Shown: one piece after another, positions 29,988 through 64,000 of the stretch
How the letters are laid out: every line of letters begins with the position of its first letter
Numbering within the stretch: position 1 is the stretch's first letter
Source of the DNA: Rhodocollybia butyracea
Lineage: Eukaryota > Basidiomycota > Agaricomycetes > Agaricales > Omphalotaceae
DNA length: 64,000 nucleotides
Assembly (NCBI GenBank): GCA_015501585.1
Contig: JADNRY010000147.1
Location: 1 to 64,000 of the forward strand
Reading direction: 5' to 3'
Notes under the pieces: model-generated
What the model saw: the letters and a program-made list of their open reading frames with translations, nothing else
What the model was told of the DNA's origin: nothing
Database searches by the model: none
Position numbers and translations under genes: made by a program

Positions 29988-32900
29988 GAAGTGTAAGTGT
30001 TTCAGCTTTCAGCGGCGCGCTCATGTATGCTATGCTTAAAACTCGAAATTAGTGTTTTCCATGTAGTACATTTGCAGAAAGCTCCTCAAAGTACCGCAGG
30101 TGCCTTATCCCAACAATGAAATGAAATACAAAATGAAATACAAAATACACAAACTCTTTCATTCACTAGTGATCCCCTTGTGGGGGATTTTCGACATAGC
30201 TTGCTGGGCATTATGTGTGGCCCTGAGGACACTTCATGGTTTGGTCCTCTACGTTGAAAGGTTGATAAACTCACCAGTAAGCCCAACAAAACTTCATAGA
30301 ACATCAGCTTCATCAGGAATTTAGTGCCAACTCTGGCACTAACTCATCATTTACACGTGTAATCCGCATTCCAAGGAACTCAGTTGGTTCTCCTAGATCA
30401 CGACATTCCCATAATTTCATAAACTCATTTTTCTTTTTAAGAACAAGATCTTTGTCCTTGCCAAAAAAGAGTGCGTCATCAACATAGATGATGGCATTTA
30501 TGGTTTTGCCATTTGATTTAAAGATGTATACACCAGCATCTGAAGAGCAGCGCTTAAACCCAATTTTCCCATGGAGGCATTACATTCCTTGCACCAGGAT
30601 AAGCTAGCTTGTGTCAGTCCGTATAATGCATGATGTAACCGCCATACTTTTGGTGTGCCTTCTTTAATGAAGTCTTTAGGTTGTTCCATCTAGATCTCCT
30701 CATCTAGCTTGCCATAAAGAAAAGCCTGTTTGACATCAAGAGCCTGGATTTCCCAGTCCTCCAATGCGGCTAAAGCTAGGAGAGTTTGTACAGTTTCAAA
30801 CCGGGCAAGTGGTGAGAACAACTCATCATAATCCACACCTTCTACTTGTGAAAAACCTTTTGCTACGAGTCGGGCTTTATAGCGACCATCAGATTTTTTT
30901 AGTAAAAACCCATCGACAACAGATAGGTTTGCAACCTTTTGGTAGATCAACTACTTCAAAAACATTTCATTTCTTCAAACCATTGATCTTTTTCTTTCTT
31001 TCAGCAGATGGTAAATGACAATATGATGTTGGAGAAATCCAATTATCAGGATTATTCCTAGCAGCTGCGTGTTTAGCAGGTATCATTTTACTGTCAAGAT
31101 CTGTGATAAAAGATGATTCTTCTAGAGAATCAGAGATCACTTGCAAAAGAAGGTATTTTTGTAATTCAACTCCTCCTTCCTGAGCTAGTTTAGTCAGAAG
31201 TGCTTCCTCTTCTATGTCAGAATCCAGATTAGCGCCAGGTGGTGGCGGTGTGACCATACGGTCATCAGGATTCAATGGACGTGGTGGTGGAACCAGTGGC
31301 GGAACTTGATCAGGAACTATATTGCGAGCAGGCACAAGTCCACGTCTAGTGTGTCCAAAGTGCTCAGCACATTCTTCACGATCAGCTTGTCGGCTCCAAG
31401 TGCCAGGCGTGGGTATCATGCCAGGGCGCAAGGGTGCACAGCATTCTCTGGTGGGGTTCACACGTTTCCATGCTTCAATGTCTTCAGGATGGTAGCTGAA
31501 TGGATTAGGATTGGGAACAGGTGGTGAAGGGTCTCTTGCTTGAGGTGGAGGGGTGGGTGATCAAGATGGTACCGGAGGATCGGAATTTGGAGCATCATCA
31601 TCACCAGGCAGATCTGGATCTGGGCCAGCTGGTGGACTGTGCAGTCCATTATCCGGTTCAGTAAACGGTTGTGGTTGATCTTCCGGGAATTCTGGATCAA
31701 ATGGAATGTCTGCACCATTACCATTTAAAGGTTGCGAAGGTTTCACAGGCGTGGGAGGAACAGGTATAGTGGGTTTTACTCCAGAATCAGATTCGGATTT
31801 GCACTGTGGAAACCATTTCTCATAGAAAGTTGCTTGTGCAGCATGCACTATGGAATTATCGCTACACATGAATAGATATCCTTTGCTTCCTTGATCATAT
31901 CCAATGAAAGTCATCGCTTCAGAGTGTGGAGATTGTTTATTTTTTTGCTTGTCAATAGGAATAAAGACATAAGCACCACAGCCAAAGGTTCTGAAGTACA
32001 AGACATCAGGCTTCTTTTTGAGAAAACCTTCAATTGGTGTCTTCCAGTTCAATCAACGGATCAGTGTGTGGTTGTACACATGTACTCCTGTGGAATATGA
32101 AAATTGCCACCAGAACTCTGGACAGCATGCATGGTGTCGCATGGCTTTGGATTTTTCCATGAGTGTACGGTTGATACATTCCGCTCTACCATTCTGTTGA
32201 TGAACATAAGGTTCGGACATTTGAATATCAATACCCTCGGATTTGAGAAAGGAAGTAAATTCCTTTGAGATAAGCTCTCCCCCTCGATCTATGCGGAAAC
32301 GCACAAGTTTGCGTCCAGTTTGTTTTTCAGCCCAAGATTTGAAATCCTTGAAGGCTTGAAACGCTTCTGATTTTTGTCGCAGCATGATTGAAGTCACATG
32401 AGAAGAGCAGTCATCCAGCAGAGTGATCACAAATTTAAATTTATGATAAGAGATGGTTGGAATTTCAACCATATCTGTGTGAATTAAATCCATAGGATTG
32501 GATGCTCGTTTCTCGGACTTAGGATATGCTTTGGAGGCAGCCTTTCCAAGCGCACAACCTTTGCATGGAGATTCTTTATCTGGTATTGACAACTCAGGTA
32601 GTCCGTTGACATTTCCAGGAGCATTGTGTAATATGACATCGCCGGGATGTGCAAAACGGTTATGCCAGGTGTTAAAATCATTAGGAGATGATATCATGCC
32701 TATCTCAGATTTCACTACATCGGCCTTTAGCCAGTGAATATTATCCCTGTCGTTATTGGGATATAAGGTCATGACTATTGAGTCATCATCCGTCTTACAA
32801 ATAACTGATTTTTCAACGTTAATAGTTGTGTAACAACCCTGTCAATTTAATAAACCAACAGATAGAAGTCAGTGTGTGCAATGCAGTTGGAAAAACATTG

Positions 32901-34053
32901 GGTGTAACTTACTAGTTGTGAGGATTTTTCCTTCGCCGTTGTCATGCCTTATGTAGATGGTTCCGGCACCTTCAATAAAGGTTGACATATGTTTGTCAGC
33001 AGTCTGGACAGGTATCAGATGTGTGAATTTTTTATAAGACACAAAGTCTTGCCAATAAGGAGTGAAATATCCAGATGCACCGGAATCAAGCAGCCATGTA
33101 TTAAATATCTGACTAAGGTTCTTATTTGCACCATGCACATCATTGGAAACCATTTTATTTAATCTACCCTCACTAGGAGGTACAGAGTTCAAGAAGCGTG
33201 GAGAATGTGATACATAAGGTCCATTTGGACTGTTCAATATTCCAGCCATATTATTGAACATCTGTTGTAATGAGTGCAATTGGTCAATGAATTTTTCCTT
33301 AAAACTATTAAGGGAAGCTTGCTAGAAAATAAGGCGCTCATCTCCAGAGCCATACATTTCCTTGTAATCATCAATGTCCATATTGACTTTGGTCTGAGGC
33401 CAGAGGTGATCGGAGAGATTGACCTCTACTTCCTCAATCTTCATCCTGTCAAGGACAGAGTTGTGGGAGGCTTCATGGAGGAAGCTGTCATTAATGCGCA
33501 AGGCAAGGCATGTGGCAAAGTTAGAGACATTGGAAGTCTCAACTTCAGCTGATTCATGAGCCTTTCCTTTGCCTTTACCACCTTTCTTTCCACGGCATGT
33601 CTTTTTGTCTTTGTCAGAAGAGGAGGACCAGTCATTAGAAGGTTTGCTGTCTGGGTAAGGCGCTCCCTTCTTGTTGTCTTTCTTCTTTTTCTGATCATTC
33701 CAAGAAGATTTGGAGTCAGATTGACGTTTGACGCAGGAGATGCGGGCCGCAAGTGAGGTAGCGTTGGATTGGCGGTGGCAATACTCATCCTGAATAATCG
33801 GCATGATATTGGATGGAGTAAGGAGAGTAGCATCTCAAGAAAGGATTGTCATCGCAAGACTATCCCATTGAGTAGGAAGGGCGGCCAAGAGGATCATAGC
33901 TTTTACTGGTTTGGGAAGAATAAGACCAGAGCCGTCAAGGCGGGAGAAGGTTGATGTCAATGAAGCCAAGGCTAGGGTGGGATTGGCCCTTCCATCAATT
34001 TGGAAGTTAATGGCCTCTTTAAAGATGCCAAAAGTACCGGCAGAGCTGGGTTT

Positions 34054-55299: not shown

Positions 55300-55540
55300 G
55301 TCTAGCGCTTATGTACTGTAGTTTTTTTTACACCTGTAGTACACACATAGCTAAGCCTTGTCATGTTCTCTAGTGTGAATTAAGGATGACTACCCTAGGG
55401 GTGTTACATGCCCAAACATTTCTTAGTAAGCCTACTATGACTCACCACTTTTGCCCCCCTACAGGCTTATCCAGTTATATTAAAATACACTCTCAATACA
55501 GTATCAGGTTTTATTATAATAGAGCTAATACTACAGGTGA

Positions 55541-55996
55541 ATATCTTTGAGAACTGTGGCATGAACATGCTTATCGAGGCTTACCATCGTGTTCTCAAGG
55601 GAAAGTTTCTTCACAGCAAGGATAACCAACAAGTGGACCATCTGGTTCACTGTCTCATAAATGAGATGGTTCTGTACAGTCATTTCAAGCAGTTTTGTTG
55701 ATGAGGATCAGGATGATGTGGAACTGCCTCCAACTTATCTTGTTCAGCCTAAATCTGATCTTTCATGCCATTACAAGGTTAATCTGGAATCTTACACTTG
55801 CTCATGTCTTGACTTTCCCTTGATTCGCTACTGCAAGCATATCTGTGCAGCTCAAGCCTTTTTTGGTGAAGAGACTTCCAAACCACCACTACAAATCAGT
55901 TTCAACAATCCATCTCCATCTCCCATCATCCTTGCTCCTTCAAATACACAGCCAGCCAATTCAACAGACTTGCTTCTTGATAAGCTCAATTCATGA
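55541..55996 (+). pseudogene. MULE transposase C-terminal fragment (SWIM zinc finger)
   Basis: After an AG acceptor near 55536 the frame reads VNIFENCGMNMLIEAYHRVL and HSKDNQQVDHLVHCLINEM, then shifts, then YKVNLESYTCSCLDFPLIRY followed by CKHICAAQAFFGEE. The CxC..CxH pattern (C-S-C and C-K-H) is the SWIM finger found near the C-terminus of fungal Mutator-like transposases, and the preceding N-x2-E-xxH-R-x-L block matches the end of their catalytic domain. A frameshift near 55680 and loss of everything upstream make this a remnant. Confidence 0.65.
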
Positions 55997-56438: not shown

Positions 56439-56478
56439 CAGAAATATGGGCATAATAGTGGGTAAAAAATCAAGTGAA

Positions 56479-57118
56479 CGTATGTGAGCATCAAGGAGGA
56501 TATTTCCTTGCTTTCTCCTGATGGCGGCATATTTTCTTATCTCATACTTTGACTTCCTTATTTATTATCATAACACTCAATCTTTGGCCGCATTTTCTAA
56601 CGAGAGGAGAACAGCAGCATCCCCAATCTACCTTAAGTCAAAGCCAAGGCAAAGCGGCAAAGCTATCACCTCTAGACTCGGATATCTCAGAAAGTGAAAT
56701 AAGCGCCCAAGATTAGATAAATAACAAGGCGCTTATACTATATCAGAGATGGTTAGCAATTTCGGCCAGCGCAATTCTACTTCTGCCTTTGCTCTCTCGG
56801 CTCACTGTTTGCACGCAACCACACAATAAAGAATACCTTGTGCAACTAGTACCAAGCATAAGAAAGACAAGAAAAAGCGCAAAAAATGGCTGTACAAACC
56901 TGACAAGCTGACAGCAAACCAACTTCGATAGAAGCCTGGGCTCCTCAAATGCCGAACCAAGGCTCAATCTCCTTGTCTCTACTACAGACAATGGACAGTT
57001 TTTCTTTTGTATCTTCTTCTTCTAGCCACAATGGGGTGAGTGTACATAAAATCTGCGAGAAAGGGATGGCATAGCTCGTCCTTTTTTCTTCCTGTTTCTT
57101 TCGGCTATTCTGACAGAC
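56479..57118. promoter_or_regulatory. 5' region of the TET/JBP-integrase element
   Basis: 640 bp between the left inverted repeat and the first plus-strand gene. Minus-strand open frames here (e.g. 56743-56991) show no domain. A TATACTATATCAG stretch near 56733 is AT-rich but not a clear TATA box. Confidence 0.35.
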
Positions 57119-59134
57119 ATGTCCATTCCTCACCTTGAACCATCTATCTTGAAATCTTGCAAGAATGCGTCGCTCTCACCAGCAAAATGTACAGTCTACT
57201 GTGGCCAGTTCTTTCCTGAATCAGGTGATTTTACGAACATTAGTCCAACAACAAAATGTGCTATATGCGGATGCTTGGCGGCATCACACATCCATATTCC
57301 AATGCACAGCGAGGTTAGTGTCATTTCCCTTGCCCTTCTTCATTTGCATCTGAGACCCTGCCGTTTACTTCAGAACAATGGCGGTTCTCCAAAATTGGGC
57401 CTCAAGGTAAGTTTCTAATAAACGACCATTATTTTGCTTTTTTAACTGGTACGTCTCTACTCGTGGCCTATCCAGGCTGAGAGACCATATCCAGCAAGTT
57501 CTGCTACTGCTGATGCGATGTTCTCCTCTCGTGCTGGCCTCAAACCTTCTAGTAACGCGTTCTCTGCTTCACCCTTTTGCGATCATACAAAGAGTCGAGA
57601 GGAGCAGTCTGCAAAAGAACCAGAGAGCTCTAACTCAACGTCAAAGTGTTGGGCGTAAGTCATTTTCTCTATATTTTCCCCTACATCTCACAAGCGTTAT
57701 ACGGCGTTTAGGGTGACAACGGGGCATAAAAGTTCTCACTTCGCATGGATGACTTTTGTGAACTTAAACGGACCCTGTGCAATATGCGCGGGCCAAAGAA
57801 TTGCGCAGAACTTGACGCTGTGAGTGGGTAAGTTGTGTTTCTAAAATATTTAAACCTTTAGCTTAAAAAACTCACTCAGTGGACGGACGGGGCCGAGAGA
57901 CATTATTGGGTATACGCTGGCTATGCTGATGCTACCAAAAGCACCAGGAAATGGTTTGATCGTCTGAAAAAGGGAGCCCCGCATGGTGTTTATTTTGAGC
58001 AGCTCAGAGACCTTATCAAAGATGATATTGTTGAGCCAGCCCAGGAACTCATCCAGCTCTCTTTGACGATAGCATCGTGGACCCAGGTTGAAAAGGACAA
58101 GTTTAATGTTCTCTTTTCCTTAGGTTTGTTTCAACGCCTTCTCAGCTGATTTTTTGCCTAACATTACCTTCACTCATAGGCCCCTTTGGCCTCAACCTTA
58201 TAGTGACTTGCATTGAAATGTTCTTGCAAGAAGCTGCATCTGCAGGGAAATCTTTTGGCGAAAAATTAGCATGCGAATGTCCCGACATCCTCACCAGCTT
58301 TAGATCTCTCCCCACTGCCCTTCTTTCTTTGGTCCGCTACTTTTGACAGGCCGTCTTTAGAGGCTTGTGGGACCCCAAAGATGGCTTTTCTCAGCTGTTA
58401 ACGGCTCTAGAAGCGCATGGAGGTTGTCTTATAGTTAGTAATTTGCGTTGAGAAGCCCTGTGTGGTTGAGACTAACCCAGTGTTTTTTTCAGAATGGCTC
58501 ACGGCACTCTGTCTTCAGTTATGATCTTGAAAGTGTCGATCTCGACAATTTCTCTGCTTATGACATCCGAGAAGCTCTAATCCAAGCGTTTGGGAGCATT
58601 ACCGAACCTGCTAAAATCATCAGCTCTGCACTTTGTGGCGGGGCTTTTGGCTTACATGGGTTCTATCAGCGTTTTGCAGAGCATGTGCTTGACCGCATGG
58701 GCACCAACTGTCAAGAATATGAAAAGATATACCAGTTATTGGCTTGTTTGTGTCAAGCGCTTGCTCACAGGCTCATTAGCCATGCCGCCTCATTGCCCGG
58801 TACAGCAAAACCAGATGCTCGCTCAGCAGGTCGCCCTTCCAAGAGAACACCTCCCACCAGGTCATCATCTCCCTTGCCCTCAGAGACCATGGCCAGCACA
58901 TCAGGCTCAGCCGACTCTCCCTCTAATAAACCCATCCCTTCCCATGTTGCTGCAGCTGAAGCCTTTGCAGCACGTGTTTCACTGTTTACTTGGGAAAATT
59001 TTGTGAGAGATCTATTACGGGACTTTCCGCATCCCAAACTGTCGAAACGACTGGATCATGCTGTTATCCATGGCCTCCCAGCGGCACGGCAGTACTGTCA
59101 GTTAAATCTGGTGAGTAAATTTATTAGTAGTTAA
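57119..59134 (+). CDS. Unknown multi-exon gene with N-terminal Cys/His cluster
   Basis: Exon 1 (57119-57312) encodes MSIPHLEPSILKSCKNASLS and then C-x3-C, KCAICGCLAASH (C-x2-C-x-C-x3-H), a possible zinc site. Following introns (GTTAGT..CAG, GTAAGT..CAG, GTAAGT..TAG) lead to KLGLK/AERPYPASSATADAMFSS and then, around 57890-58130, WTDGAERHYWVYAGYADATK and RKWFDRLKKGAPHGVYFEQL. The last exon (58495 on) has VDLDNFSAYDIREALIQAFG, YEKIYQLLACLCQALAH, a Ser/Pro-rich linker, and FVRDLLRDFPHPKLSKRLD to 59134. An in-frame TGA near 58345 (VRYF*QAVF) interrupts one model, so the copy may be inactive. I recognise no family. Position between the left end and the dioxygenase suggests an element-encoded accessory protein, possibly DNA-binding. 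Confidence 0.5.
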
Positions 59135-59667
59135 CAGGCGTACCATCCCGACCAGAACATTGGTGAACCTGCGGAATGGAGAAGTATTGCTCTTGTCTTG
59201 ACTCAGGCTATCGGAGCTGCTAGGGGCCGGCTCTGAGCCGTTCTGGTCAGTTTTCTTGTGCAGAGTACGCCCTTAATATTTCTTGCCAGCTGGTGTTCTG
59301 CTCGTTCCAGCATTACCTTTTCTTGCTGAGCCGTTGGGCTTCTCTATTTATAGCAATTGTTTCTGGCATGTTTGTTCTTGGCTGGTACCGTAGTGCTTGT
59401 ATATTTTTGAAGGATTTTTTTTGTTATCCTGGTGAATACCTTTTCCCTGTATCTTTCTTGGGGATAATAATAGATTTATTGTCTTAATTTCCTGCTGATT
59501 GAGCTGGTTGAGCATGCATATTGAGTGTGCATATTGGGCGCTTAATCGATCATGTGCAGCGCAGTTTGTTGCATTGCTCTCCATCTCAAACACTACCATC
59601 CTCCCTCTTCTCTCTTCTTTTGCCTTTCTCATCTGTTGAAAACCTAATTGACACTGGATATCGCTGA
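59135..59667. other. Spacer between the unknown gene and the TET/JBP gene
   Basis: No coding domain. A plus-strand frame at 59293-59487 is hydrophobic low-complexity (FCSFQHYLFLL) in T-rich DNA, probably 3' UTR or promoter of the next gene. Confidence 0.4.
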
Positions 59668-61556
59668 ATGAGTAACACCGTGTCTGGTAAGTTGCGTTTC
59701 TATACTCTCAAATTTTGTTGTTGTTTTTGCCTTGTATTTATCCTGCCCTTCTCTGTACGTGTTTCAAAGGTTCTGGCTATTCTGACTCTCTCTATGGAGT
59801 AATAATATGCTAGTTATCCCTGAGAAGTTGCGTACGCTACCTTCACAACTTGTGTACGTCATCACTACTTTACCAGCAGTGTTGGCTCTCTTTAAGGAGC
59901 AGACAGCGCATAAAGCTCTTTGAATTTTCAACACCTTTCCCCTCCTTAACTTCTCCTCCTTTTTGAAACATAACTGAGTCTAATCATAAATTGCAATACA
60001 GCACCATTCCAAGCGTTGAAACTACGTGTGGAATGTTTCAATCTCGAAGAAGCACTTATTAACGACAACCAGGCTTGTATGGAGGCAGAGGATGCAGGAG
60101 AAGTGCTGGATGATGAAGAGGTGGAGCTTGATGATGAGTTTTTGGCCAATGAAGATACAAACGCCCCCTGTCCCACCTCAAACATGCCTTGCTCAACCCC
60201 AGTACCCACCCCTAGCACTATCTCTCCCACCTCATTGCCGGCACCCTCCTATCCGTCTCCTCTCCTATCAAAAACACAGAAGTCAAACCAGCGCAACCAT
60301 CAGAAGCAGCGTGCTAAACGCACCTTGAAAGCTGAGGCGCGTAATATGGAGAACAGCCTCAAGCCTCCAGCGGTGAAGCACACTCAAGGCGCTAAGCCTT
60401 CTGTCATGGATTTTGATGCATTGTCTCTTCCCGTTTCCACTACTGGGTGGACGGGAGTTTGCTCAAAGCTTTCAGCAGGCCTTCAGCGCGTCTGGCATAA
60501 CCTAGCTGTGCTTACGCAGATGAGAGGCTTCTTAATTGGGACGGCGAGTCATGCATAGTTCTTGTTGACCGCTCTGACCACATCATCATGGTGCTTGGAG
60601 GCGTTCCCCCTGGTGCTCGAGGTCCTGAATGGCAAGAGCTTCTAACAAAGCTAAATGCTGCCGTCAGGAGCTGCAGCAATCGCAGTACTTTTGCAGCCAA
60701 GGAGACAAGCCACTATCAAGGAAATTTCCGCTCTCAAGCTACAGGTATCAGCTACGGAGGAGGGCGTCAAGCTCCTGGAAATGTTAAGATTAGTGGGGTT
60801 GTCAACCAGGAAGAGATGCAAAAACTCATGCTTGACCATAATATGCAGAGGGTAGTTGGCTTTTCAAATTGTGCATGCCTTTTTCTTTATTACTTTCTCT
60901 GCTAACACCCTGCCTCAGCTCTCTTCAACGCATTTGGCCACAAAACCTTCTGTGAATACAAGGACACACTGAAGGAACATATTGCCCGTGACTCTCGCCT
61001 CCGCCCTACGTCACCCAGCACTGTTTTTGCTGCCACCACCGTCAACTTTGGCCCACAGACATGCACCCCCCCTCACCTTGATGCTGCTAACGCCGCTCAC
61101 GGATGGTGCACAGACACTGCTGCTGGAGAGTTTGACCCAGACAAGGGAGGTCATCTTGTCTTGTGGAATCTCAATCTAGTTATTCGCTTCCCTCCTGGCT
61201 CCACTATCCTTTTTCCCTCGGCCCTCATCATGCATTCAAACATCCCAGTGTCCCCACATGAAACATGCTATTCCATTGTTCAATATTCTGCAGGCGGTCT
61301 TTTTTGTTGGAGGCACAACGGGTGGCAGTCAGACAAAAAGTTCTTTGCAAAGGCTAGCCAGAAAGAGAAGGAGCAGAGAGAAAAAGACCGAGCACAGCAC
61401 TGGAAGGTTAATTTGGGGAAATTTACGCGATGGAGTGACTTAGTAAGCGGCGATTGGCAAGGGAAGAGGAGGACAGAGGCGGGTCTGGATGAAATGAGTG
61501 AACTCAGCGAGGAGGAGAACATTTGCCCAGCCAAGAAATGTGCTCGTCAACACTGA
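59668..61556 (+). CDS. TET/JBP family 2OG-Fe(II) dioxygenase, catalytic Arg lost
   Basis: Starts MSNTVS at 59668, with a GTAAGT..CAG intron (59687-60001) before APFQALKLRVECFNLEE. An acidic and Pro-rich linker (60080-60260) and a Lys-rich stretch precede the catalytic region: NWDGESCIVLVDRSDHIIMV, GISYGGGRQAPGN, then ALFNAFGHKTFCEYKDTL, VFAATTVNFGPQT, PHLDAANAAHGWC, GGHLVLWNLNLVIRFPPGS and LIMHSNIPVSPHETCYSIVQ, YSAGGLFCW, with a charged C-tail. This is the fungal TET/JBP arrangement; family members oxidise 5-methylcytosine. The Fe ligands are present (HLD at 61073-61081, distal His at 61233-61235). The position that should be the 2OG-binding Arg (E-T-R-Y-S in relatives) is Cys, TGC at 61266-61268, which fits CGC-to-TGC. 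A frame change near 60505-60540 needs an intron ending at CTTACGCAG. Confidence 0.8.
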
Positions 61557-61738
61557 GTTTACAGCTTTGATACTTACATCTTCCATAAGTAAATAGTAAA
61601 ACAGTATATTAGCTAGGCTGTAAAACCGTTCTCATAGCATAATATGAATTTTTCAAGTGCTCTGAGTTATGCTTTAGCATACAGCCCCGGAGCCAAGCAT
61701 CCCGCCCGGTACAAAGCTTCTTGTTCTTTCCAGTCACT

Positions 61739-63338
61739 ATGGCCAGTGATTTTCAAGATCGTGCTCACCACTTCTTCACCAAATGTCATCGCTTGACATC
61801 ACAGGCAAAATGGATGACCAATGCTCTCCCCAATGCTGATATCGGAGCAGTCAAATCACTAGTTCACAAACTTTATGCGATTCGTAGGATTCTAGGTGAC
61901 ATAGATGATCCTTTTTCTACACCAGCCAGATGAACACTGATACTGTACATCAAGCACTGTATACGTCCCCTTGAAGAATTCATTGACAACCCTCCTCCTC
62001 CTCCTTCAGCAAATATTCCAAAAACTCATACTGGACAGAAAGGACGTCCATCGTATGCTCTGAACCTTGAACAAGCTATTCTACTTCATAAACTTGGCTT
62101 GTCCTGGGGCTCTATAGCAGATGCGATGGGATGTAGTTGCAAAACCCTGTACAACCACCTTGAGCGAGCAGGACTTTCGGAAGCCACACAGCATCCTTAC
62201 ACCAACATTTCCGATGAAGATCTTGATCAAAAAATTTGGGAAATTGCTCAAGAGCATCCCTTCATAGGCTTTGTAATTGCCTTGGGACATCTGAAGAGCT
62301 GACGGAGTATTCATGTGCCGATTTGATGCGTTCAGGATAGTTTTTGGCGTATTGATTCAGATGCAGTGTTGCTGAGGTATGTGCTTTAAGTTAAAGAAAA
62401 AAATCTACCGATTCCGCTTTAGATGGGGTAACCTCATGAAGCGCAGAGCTTACAAGGTTTGGGGAGCAAATGCACTTTGGCACCAAGACGGCAACAAGAA
62501 GCTTTGCCCATGGGGATTCTGGGTCCATGGTTGTGTGGACGGCCACTCGAGACTCATTATCTACCTTCAATGCTGTTCAAACAAGACTTCGGATACAGTG
62601 CTAGGCTTGTTTCAGAATGCTACCACGACCTTTGGATGGCCTAGTCGAGTTTGGGGTGATTTTGGAAAAGAAAACAACGGGATTGAACTATCTATGGTCA
62701 CTCATTGGGGTGAAGCTCATAGAGCATACATACGTGGAAGGTTTGTTTTGTGTTTGATCTGTTGTTTCTGCATCTTTTAAAAAAGTGATATCAGATCCTC
62801 ACACAACATTCGAATTGAGAGTCTTTGGCGGGACATACGGAAGGACACCCTTGAGGCATTCCGGAAAATATTTGATTACCTGGAGAAGAATGGCTTACTT
62901 GACATGACCAACAACATGCAACGCCTTTGTTTATATGCTGTATTCCAACCCCGGATACAGGATTCACTACGACGCACCGCTGATGCTTGGAACCATCATC
63001 AATTACAAACTGAACACCAAAAGACGCTGCTTGCTCTCTATGAGCTGAGCCATGAGTATGCCAAGACACGGGGATATTGGACTGGAGACCCAGGAGATGA
63101 CATCCAGACTGCTCAGCACCCATCCTATGGGCTTGAGGATGAGGGGGTTCCAGGAGATCATCAGGTTCCAGAAGAAGATAGCGGTAATATTTGGGTTAAC
63201 GAGGATGAGGACATCACTTTCGTGCAGGAAGCATTTCAGAAGATGGACTTTGATATCACACGAGACGACGACAACTGGGGTATTGATGTTTATTGTGAGG
63301 CTGTCTTATTATTTAAAGCTTTTGTTGATGCTTTATAG
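61739..63338 (+). pseudogene. DDE integrase-core transposase with three in-frame TGA codons
   Basis: Starts MASDFQDRAHHFFTKCHRLT at 61739. A helical N-terminus is followed by a Pro-rich linker and a helix-turn-helix (LGLSWGSIADAMGCSCKTLY), then QKIWEIAQEHPFIGF. An intron (GTATGT..TTTAG, about 62377-62423) leads into the catalytic core: LWHQDGNKKLCPWGFWVHGC (first Asp), VWGDFGKENNGIE (second Asp), an intron at about 62743-62796, and NIRIESLWRDIRKDTLEAF (Glu), then WNHHQLQTEHQKT. It matches the fungal integrase-core family (DGNHK-, GENV- and RIERLWRD-type blocks), not KDZ. Stops at 61931-61933, 62300-62302 and 62324-62326 are all TGA in one frame and fit CGA codons. The acidic tail ends at 63338. 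It would catalyse strand transfer at the 34-bp repeats if intact. Confidence 0.8.
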
Positions 63339-63738
63339 CTACTACTTTGCTACTATCTATTAAATAGCAAATTCGGTGCTTTGTCCACCAGTAATAAATT
63401 AATTGGGCACTTGTAAATTGCAGCGGTCAAGATTTAGAACTTGACCGTCGCCATTTACCGTCACGAGGTCCTGCAATTTTGTTGCAGACTGACAGTTTGT
63501 CCCAGGGTCAGTAATTCCAATGGAACAAAATATAACTTGTTATAAAAGTGACAACATAGTAACAACCATGGTTATACACCAGGAGTTCAAGGTACTACTG
63601 TTTTGTAAATATGCCGCTGCTTTGTGTAATTAATTACGAGAAAGCAGCCACCCCAGAAAGAAAATGCACTGTAATCAGAGGAAAGTAGCTAGTAAATATG
63701 CCGCCACCAGGGGAAAACAAGAAAATACAGTCTTGATA
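63339..63738. other. 3' region of the TET/JBP-integrase element
   Basis: 400 bp without a gene between the integrase stop and the right inverted repeat. An inverted pair GGTCAAGATTTAGAACTTGACC is at 63425-63446. No further structure was recognised. Confidence 0.5.
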
Positions 63739-63778
63739 TTCACTTGATTTTTTACACACTATTATGCCCATACAGAAA

Positions 63779-64000
63779 CCAAACCCAGTTTCCAGCAGAA
63801 ACCCAGTTTCCAGCAGAAACCCAGTTTCCAGCAGAAACCCAGTTTCCAGCAGAAACCCAGTTTCCAGCAGAAACCCAGTTTCCAGCAGAAACCCAGTTTC
63901 CAGCAGAAACCCAGTTTCCAGCAGAAACCCAGTTTCCAGCAGAAACCCAGTTTCCAGCAGAAACCCAGTTTCCAGCAGAAACCCAGTTTCCAGCAGAAAC
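63779..64000 (+). repeat. 18-bp satellite CCCAGTTTCCAGCAGAAA, at least 12 units
   Basis: From 63783 to the window end the unit CCCAGTTTCCAGCAGAAA repeats without a mismatch, so the array continues beyond 64000. One more unit lies at 56427-56444, on the other side of the 7.3-kb element, which therefore sits near the array edge. Perfect homogeneity points to recent amplification. Confidence 0.95.

Follow-up and report, generated by a model that had tools for sequence, protein, structure and literature searches.

The window analysed here is a stretch of 64,000 nucleotides of Rhodocollybia butyracea DNA (positions 1 to 64,000 of contig JADNRY010000147.1, our C436), and positions 56445-63772 of it form one IS3EU-type DNA transposon. 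The element carries three genes, all on one strand and in the order gene 1, TET, transposase, as had been described in an earlier note made from the sequence alone. The features are as follows.

56439..56444, no strand: left copy of the target-site duplication CAGAAA, read from the sequence
56445..56478, plus strand: left terminal inverted repeat, starting TATGG, placed by comparison of the arms and by genome matches to both ends
56501..56537, plus strand: left arm of an inner (subterminal) inverted repeat, 37 nt, 86% complementary
57119..59236, plus strand: gene 1, with a Cys motif at the N-terminus and a weakly J-domain-like C-terminus
59668..61556, plus strand: predicted TET/JBP-fold dioxygenase gene, with an intron (60871-60918) within the domain part
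61739..63338, plus strand: three-exon DDE transposase gene (PF24764), with in-frame TGA at 61931, 62300 and 62324
63691..63727, minus strand: right arm of the inner inverted repeat, 37 nt, 86% complementary
63739..63772, minus strand: right terminal inverted repeat, finishing CCATA, also found on contigs C557 and C1316
63773..63778, no strand: right copy of the target-site duplication CAGAAA

The terminal arms (56445-56478 and 63739-63772) are 34 nt long and 97% complementary, with the single mismatch already noted. When the 95.6-Mb genome of the fungus was searched with the 34-mer at up to three mismatches, four occurrences were found, two at the window ends and the others on C557 and C1316, which have one end apiece, and the reversed control gave none. 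The right end is corroborated independently, as the identical end adjoins a different flank on C557 and C1316. Both of these copies begin to match the window at ~60454, so that the left end of the window element rests on symmetry and the duplication. They also have one right flank in common and look like one insertion that was later duplicated. The earlier note had sought support in further full-length copies having these ends and all three genes; none emerged, and both other copies lack the left part. In the DNA that replaces it, 0.6 kb upstream of the TET exon, lies an opposite-strand piece of an IS3EU transposase (C1316:206198-206428 and C557:33682-33912). The 6-bp duplication CAGAAA abuts both ends, as the note had held, but it is weaker evidence than usual because it sits inside an 18-bp minisatellite whose unit includes CAGAAA. 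Joining the flanks minus one CAGAAA copy gives the minisatellite array with a short irregularity. The array occupies window 63773-64000 and continues beyond, with 13 exact 18-bp units in locus L067, and one unit stands to the left of the element.

The window transposase matches PF24764 in Pfam (8.7e-32 and 1.5e-22), and the DDE residues, read by eye, are present in its spliced frame. It has the integrase-core DDE domain of the IS3EU/GingerRoot superfamily. The ends, TATGG..CCATA with 34-nt repeats, agree with the TA..TA ends and repeats of >30 bp of that superfamily, as do the 6-bp duplications (CAGAAA in the window; in a second IS3EU lineage, described below, AGTGGG in one copy and CTCGGG in another). 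A KDZ transposase was ruled out as the mobilising enzyme, since none of the 144 genome matches listed for PF18758 lies on C436. The central proposal of the earlier note, that a TET/JBP-fold gene shares an element of real boundaries with an integrase-core transposase other than KDZ, is upheld. Alpha-kinase (PF02816) had 14 matches genome-wide and none on C436, C557, C1316, C716 or C628.

Gene 1, also annotated as BDP27DRAFT_1368035 (P0155), is Cys-rich, as it had been called, at its N-terminus and not in the rest of the protein. A Pfam search with it was unproductive, and the predicted structure of a relative had a mean confidence (pLDDT) of 35 and was not used. Intact gene 1 was found once in the genome, so that no second copy backs it as an intact component of the element.

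The middle gene is predicted to encode a TET/JBP-fold dioxygenase. The fold was predicted in the AlphaFold model of a relative from Gymnopus (P0002), and the window protein was aligned to its relatives. In this alignment (A2), the iron ligands HxD...H were found as His in 62/63, Asp in 62/63, and the second His in 65/65 resolved rows. The Arg that binds 2-oxoglutarate was kept in 63/64 resolved rows, the sole exception being the window copy, which has Cys. CcTet of Coprinopsis cinerea has Gly331 and Asp337, and the AG type is marked by Gly or Ser at the first of these and Asp at the second; at these places, assigned by motif spacing from the first His, the window lineage has Asn (63/63 resolved rows) and Cys (62/62 resolved rows). 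The PE-type mark HxE was also absent, as HxD is present in the window TET and in 62/63 resolved rows. By the stated marks of the two types, the window TET appears to belong to a lineage outside AG and PE, with the motif HxDxxN...WC. Asn also stands at the Gly331 place in hTET2, and 5-methylcytosine (5mC) is therefore the predicted substrate.

The linkage of TET and transposase was then assessed across the genome. Merging the matches listed gave at least 134 TET loci (fragments included), at least 53 IS3EU transposase loci, at least 90 KDZ loci, and at least 44 hAT loci; all pair counts refer to these matches, and the expected counts assume uniform placement along the genome. An IS3EU transposase lay within 8 kb of 13 TET loci (1.2 expected), a KDZ gene within 8 kb of 28 (2.0 expected), and a hAT gene within 8 kb of four (1.0 expected), the last indicating some general clustering. 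The KDZ-TET pairs were on opposite strands in 27/28 cases. TET and IS3EU transposase genes thus recur together in this genome beyond the window. In three of the 13 IS3EU-TET pairs, the window family, TET lies upstream on the same strand at 0.5-0.9 kb. In eight others, the second lineage, TET lies downstream on the same strand, at 2.7-3.0 kb in seven loci and 6.8 kb in C1083. The remaining two, on C902 and C712, are on opposite strands and more than 6 kb apart.

Apart from these pairs, C902:25385-35030 and C224:9535-19175 each have a PF20515 (Tet-like) match 8.8 kb upstream of a same-strand IS3EU transposase. These are two of the three PF20515 matches in the genome, and around the transposase the copies are 98.8% similar to each other; they possibly represent a third IS3EU-TET pairing with a different TET type. 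On C712 (26332-38418), alpha-kinase, TET (31%), and IS3EU transposase matches share one contig with TET in the centre. At L047 and 11 loci grouping with it (C642, C904, C805, C533, C25, C1272, C561, C437, C1008, C158, and C663), the TET is 49-52% identical to that of the window, with no KDZ, IS3EU, or hAT match within 10 kb.

The second lineage is best represented by an element of 8768 bp on C716, which has perfect 235-bp inverted ends (TATGC..GCATA) and the duplication AGTGGG. The same ends with the duplication CTCGGG were found on C628, and C545 and C444 have matches to the C716 end sequences on both sides. Pfam searches with further open reading frames (ORFs) of the C716 element were unproductive. 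The second-lineage transposases are split from that of the window by a long branch (1.21, support 1.000), and their TETs form a separate clade (100/100). The separate transposase branch together with the separate TET clade indicates two or more entries of TET into IS3EU elements of this genome, the alternative being one old acquisition with a later exchange of the TET gene. Paired inverted matches to the 235-bp end also occur ~1 kb apart (for example at C125:46517-47585, C442:89233-90211, and C589:49648-50690), and these are likely non-autonomous relatives resembling miniature inverted-repeat transposable elements.

The source of the window TET was examined in a tree of 45 rows, which took in the best 30 TET matches with loci; most KDZ-linked TETs (30-45% identity) and C444 fall outside this set, and P0062 and P0011 were left out as they have no residues at the motif. 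The three window-family TETs formed one clade (99.7/100), which joined the TETs of C463, C1268, and C1027 with a support of 60.3/89 and, with C506 added, of 95/99. In C506, C1027, and C1268, a KDZ gene lies 2.8-3.1 kb upstream on the opposite strand, and KDZ-neighbouring TETs of this type are the nearest in the genome to that of the window (74-81% identical over the matched part). For C463, the tie to KDZ is the DNA that it shares with C1027 outside the TET exon, because an ORF beside its TET, considered as a possible KDZ C-terminus, yielded nothing in Pfam or in tblastn against eight KDZ loci. When the window element was compared with C506, C1027, C1268, and C463 by blastn (E <=1e-5), matches of 68-73% were obtained, all within window 60064-61516, three of the four loci extending just 1.5 kb past the TET exon. 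The restriction of DNA similarity to the TET gene makes capture likely, and the simplest reading is that the gene alone was probably captured from a KDZ element. The direction from KDZ to IS3EU is weakly supported, and the gene may have passed the other way.

The window copy is dead. In its TET, besides the exchanged Arg, a gap of 7 nt relative to the two sister copies shifts the frame near 60527, and its transposase is interrupted by the three stops. Among the three window-family copies, 150 single-copy substitutions were counted over 2863 ungapped columns, 69 of them C>T changes at CpG and 33 of them T>C changes that create a CpG, a pattern that fits methylation and deamination. For CpG, observed/expected was 0.57 within the window element against 0.55 for the window sequence outside it, so that the element is as poor in CpG as its surroundings; the C716 element stood at 0.82. 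As its copies differ mostly at CpG, the family did not escape decay.

Elsewhere in the window, ORFs at 55441-55996, left of the element, resemble the remains of a MULE-type transposase in which a Cys/His motif of SWIM-like form is present, and ORFs on the minus strand at 32053-33834 resemble parts of a Copia-type retrotransposon.

Other DDE transposons of the class cut at their inverted ends and insert through staggered cuts. By analogy, the transposase of the window element would cut at its inverted ends, and staggered insertion cuts would leave the 6-bp duplications. A TET gene would have passed from a KDZ-type transposon into an IS3EU element, and in intact relatives its product would oxidise 5mC on the element, easing silencing. 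We give this account as a whole a probability of about 0.68. The substrate and the anti-silencing role are what we infer, and it is plausible that the enzyme counters host methylation. Several observations weigh against the account. The only copy with both ends is that of the window, and it is broken; the window family decayed at CpG despite carrying TET; no TET lies within 8 kb at 38/53 of the listed IS3EU loci; support is only 60.3/89 for the branch placing the window TET inside the KDZ-linked group, on which the direction depends; and Pfam Tet_JBP (PF12851) matched just 19/65 relatives at E <=5, weakly, the best at 4.6e-5. P0002 scored 13.4 bits against this profile (cut-off 34.9). A profile search of the PDB by sequence was unproductive, as none of its seven matches at E <=10 was a TET.

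The single complete copy, the broken TET, the IS3EU loci devoid of TET, and the single intact gene 1 would all suit TET and gene 1 being chance passenger DNA carried without benefit. We consider this unlikely, given that TET recurs with constant order and strand at eight loci of a deeply separate IS3EU lineage, that five of its loci compared are 65-98% alike in DNA, and that the catalytic residues are kept across the TET family. Somewhat less likely again is an enzyme that acts on DNA and not against silencing, its product base (5-hydroxymethylcytosine or a further modified one) marking the element for transposition or regulation. The CpG decay of the window family, which shows no protection, agrees with such marking, and Kojima (2025, PMC12730594) also raises hypermodification; against it, the element has no recognisable gene for an enzyme that would modify the base further. 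The annotation names of P0054, P0102, and P0114 and the Pfam domain 2OG-FeII_Oxy_3, matched by 34/65 relatives, would point to a protein (prolyl) hydroxylase, which we regard as very improbable.

Beyond the account of a TET captured by IS3EU and acting on element 5mC, a so far undescribed TET lineage of mushrooms may be a transferable anti-silencing cassette, a single gene passing between KDZ and IS3EU elements. IS3EU would then have acquired TET in two or more independent events, with the PF20515-type pairing as a possible third; we hold this broader proposal tentatively, at a little under even odds. The findings suggest that TET genes also move between unrelated transposons in mushrooms. A genome that has >100 TET-like loci, with two or more unrelated transposases as neighbours, offers a direct test bed for TET against silencing by cytosine methylation, and the decayed window family warns that TET cargo is no guarantee of escape.

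TET genes on KDZ transposons were reportedly described by Iyer in 2014, as cited by Kojima. The KDZ-TET transposons differ from the window element in transposase family, ends, and gene orientation. The earlier note knew of no described element of the present kind; this did not stand, as Kojima (2025, PMC12730594) reported TET-positive IS3EU elements from seven rust species (Pucciniales) and Tuber indicum, besides KDZ (Kyakuja-type) transposons carrying TET. These IS3EU elements resemble that of the window in the IS3EU transposase, the ends TAYGG..CCRTA (given for the rusts), repeats >30 bp, 6-bp duplications, and the TET/JBP gene aboard. In them, however, TET stands between the transposase and an opposite-strand alpha-kinase gene and has the PE mark HxE, whereas the window element has an agaric host, the one-strand order gene 1-TET-transposase, no alpha-kinase on its contig, and HxD. 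The order on C712 recalls Kojima's arrangement, but its alpha-kinase and transposase share a strand. The Agaricomycotina TET carriers named in that text are Kyakuja, Zisupton, EnSpm, Plavaka, and Helitron2, and no movement of TET between transposons is seen there for the agaric AG type; oxidation of 5mC on the element by TET is proposed. Agaric members, the gene order, the TET lineage, and the KDZ link were found neither in literature searches nor in the text of Kojima consulted, and agaric IS3EU elements may be listed in its Table S1 only. Measured against that text, the kind of element is already known, and the agaric IS3EU with TET, its gene order, its TET lineage, the KDZ link, and a second IS3EU lineage with its own TET in the same genome are new. 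TET-carrying IS3EU transposons are thereby extended to mushrooms, with element boundaries.
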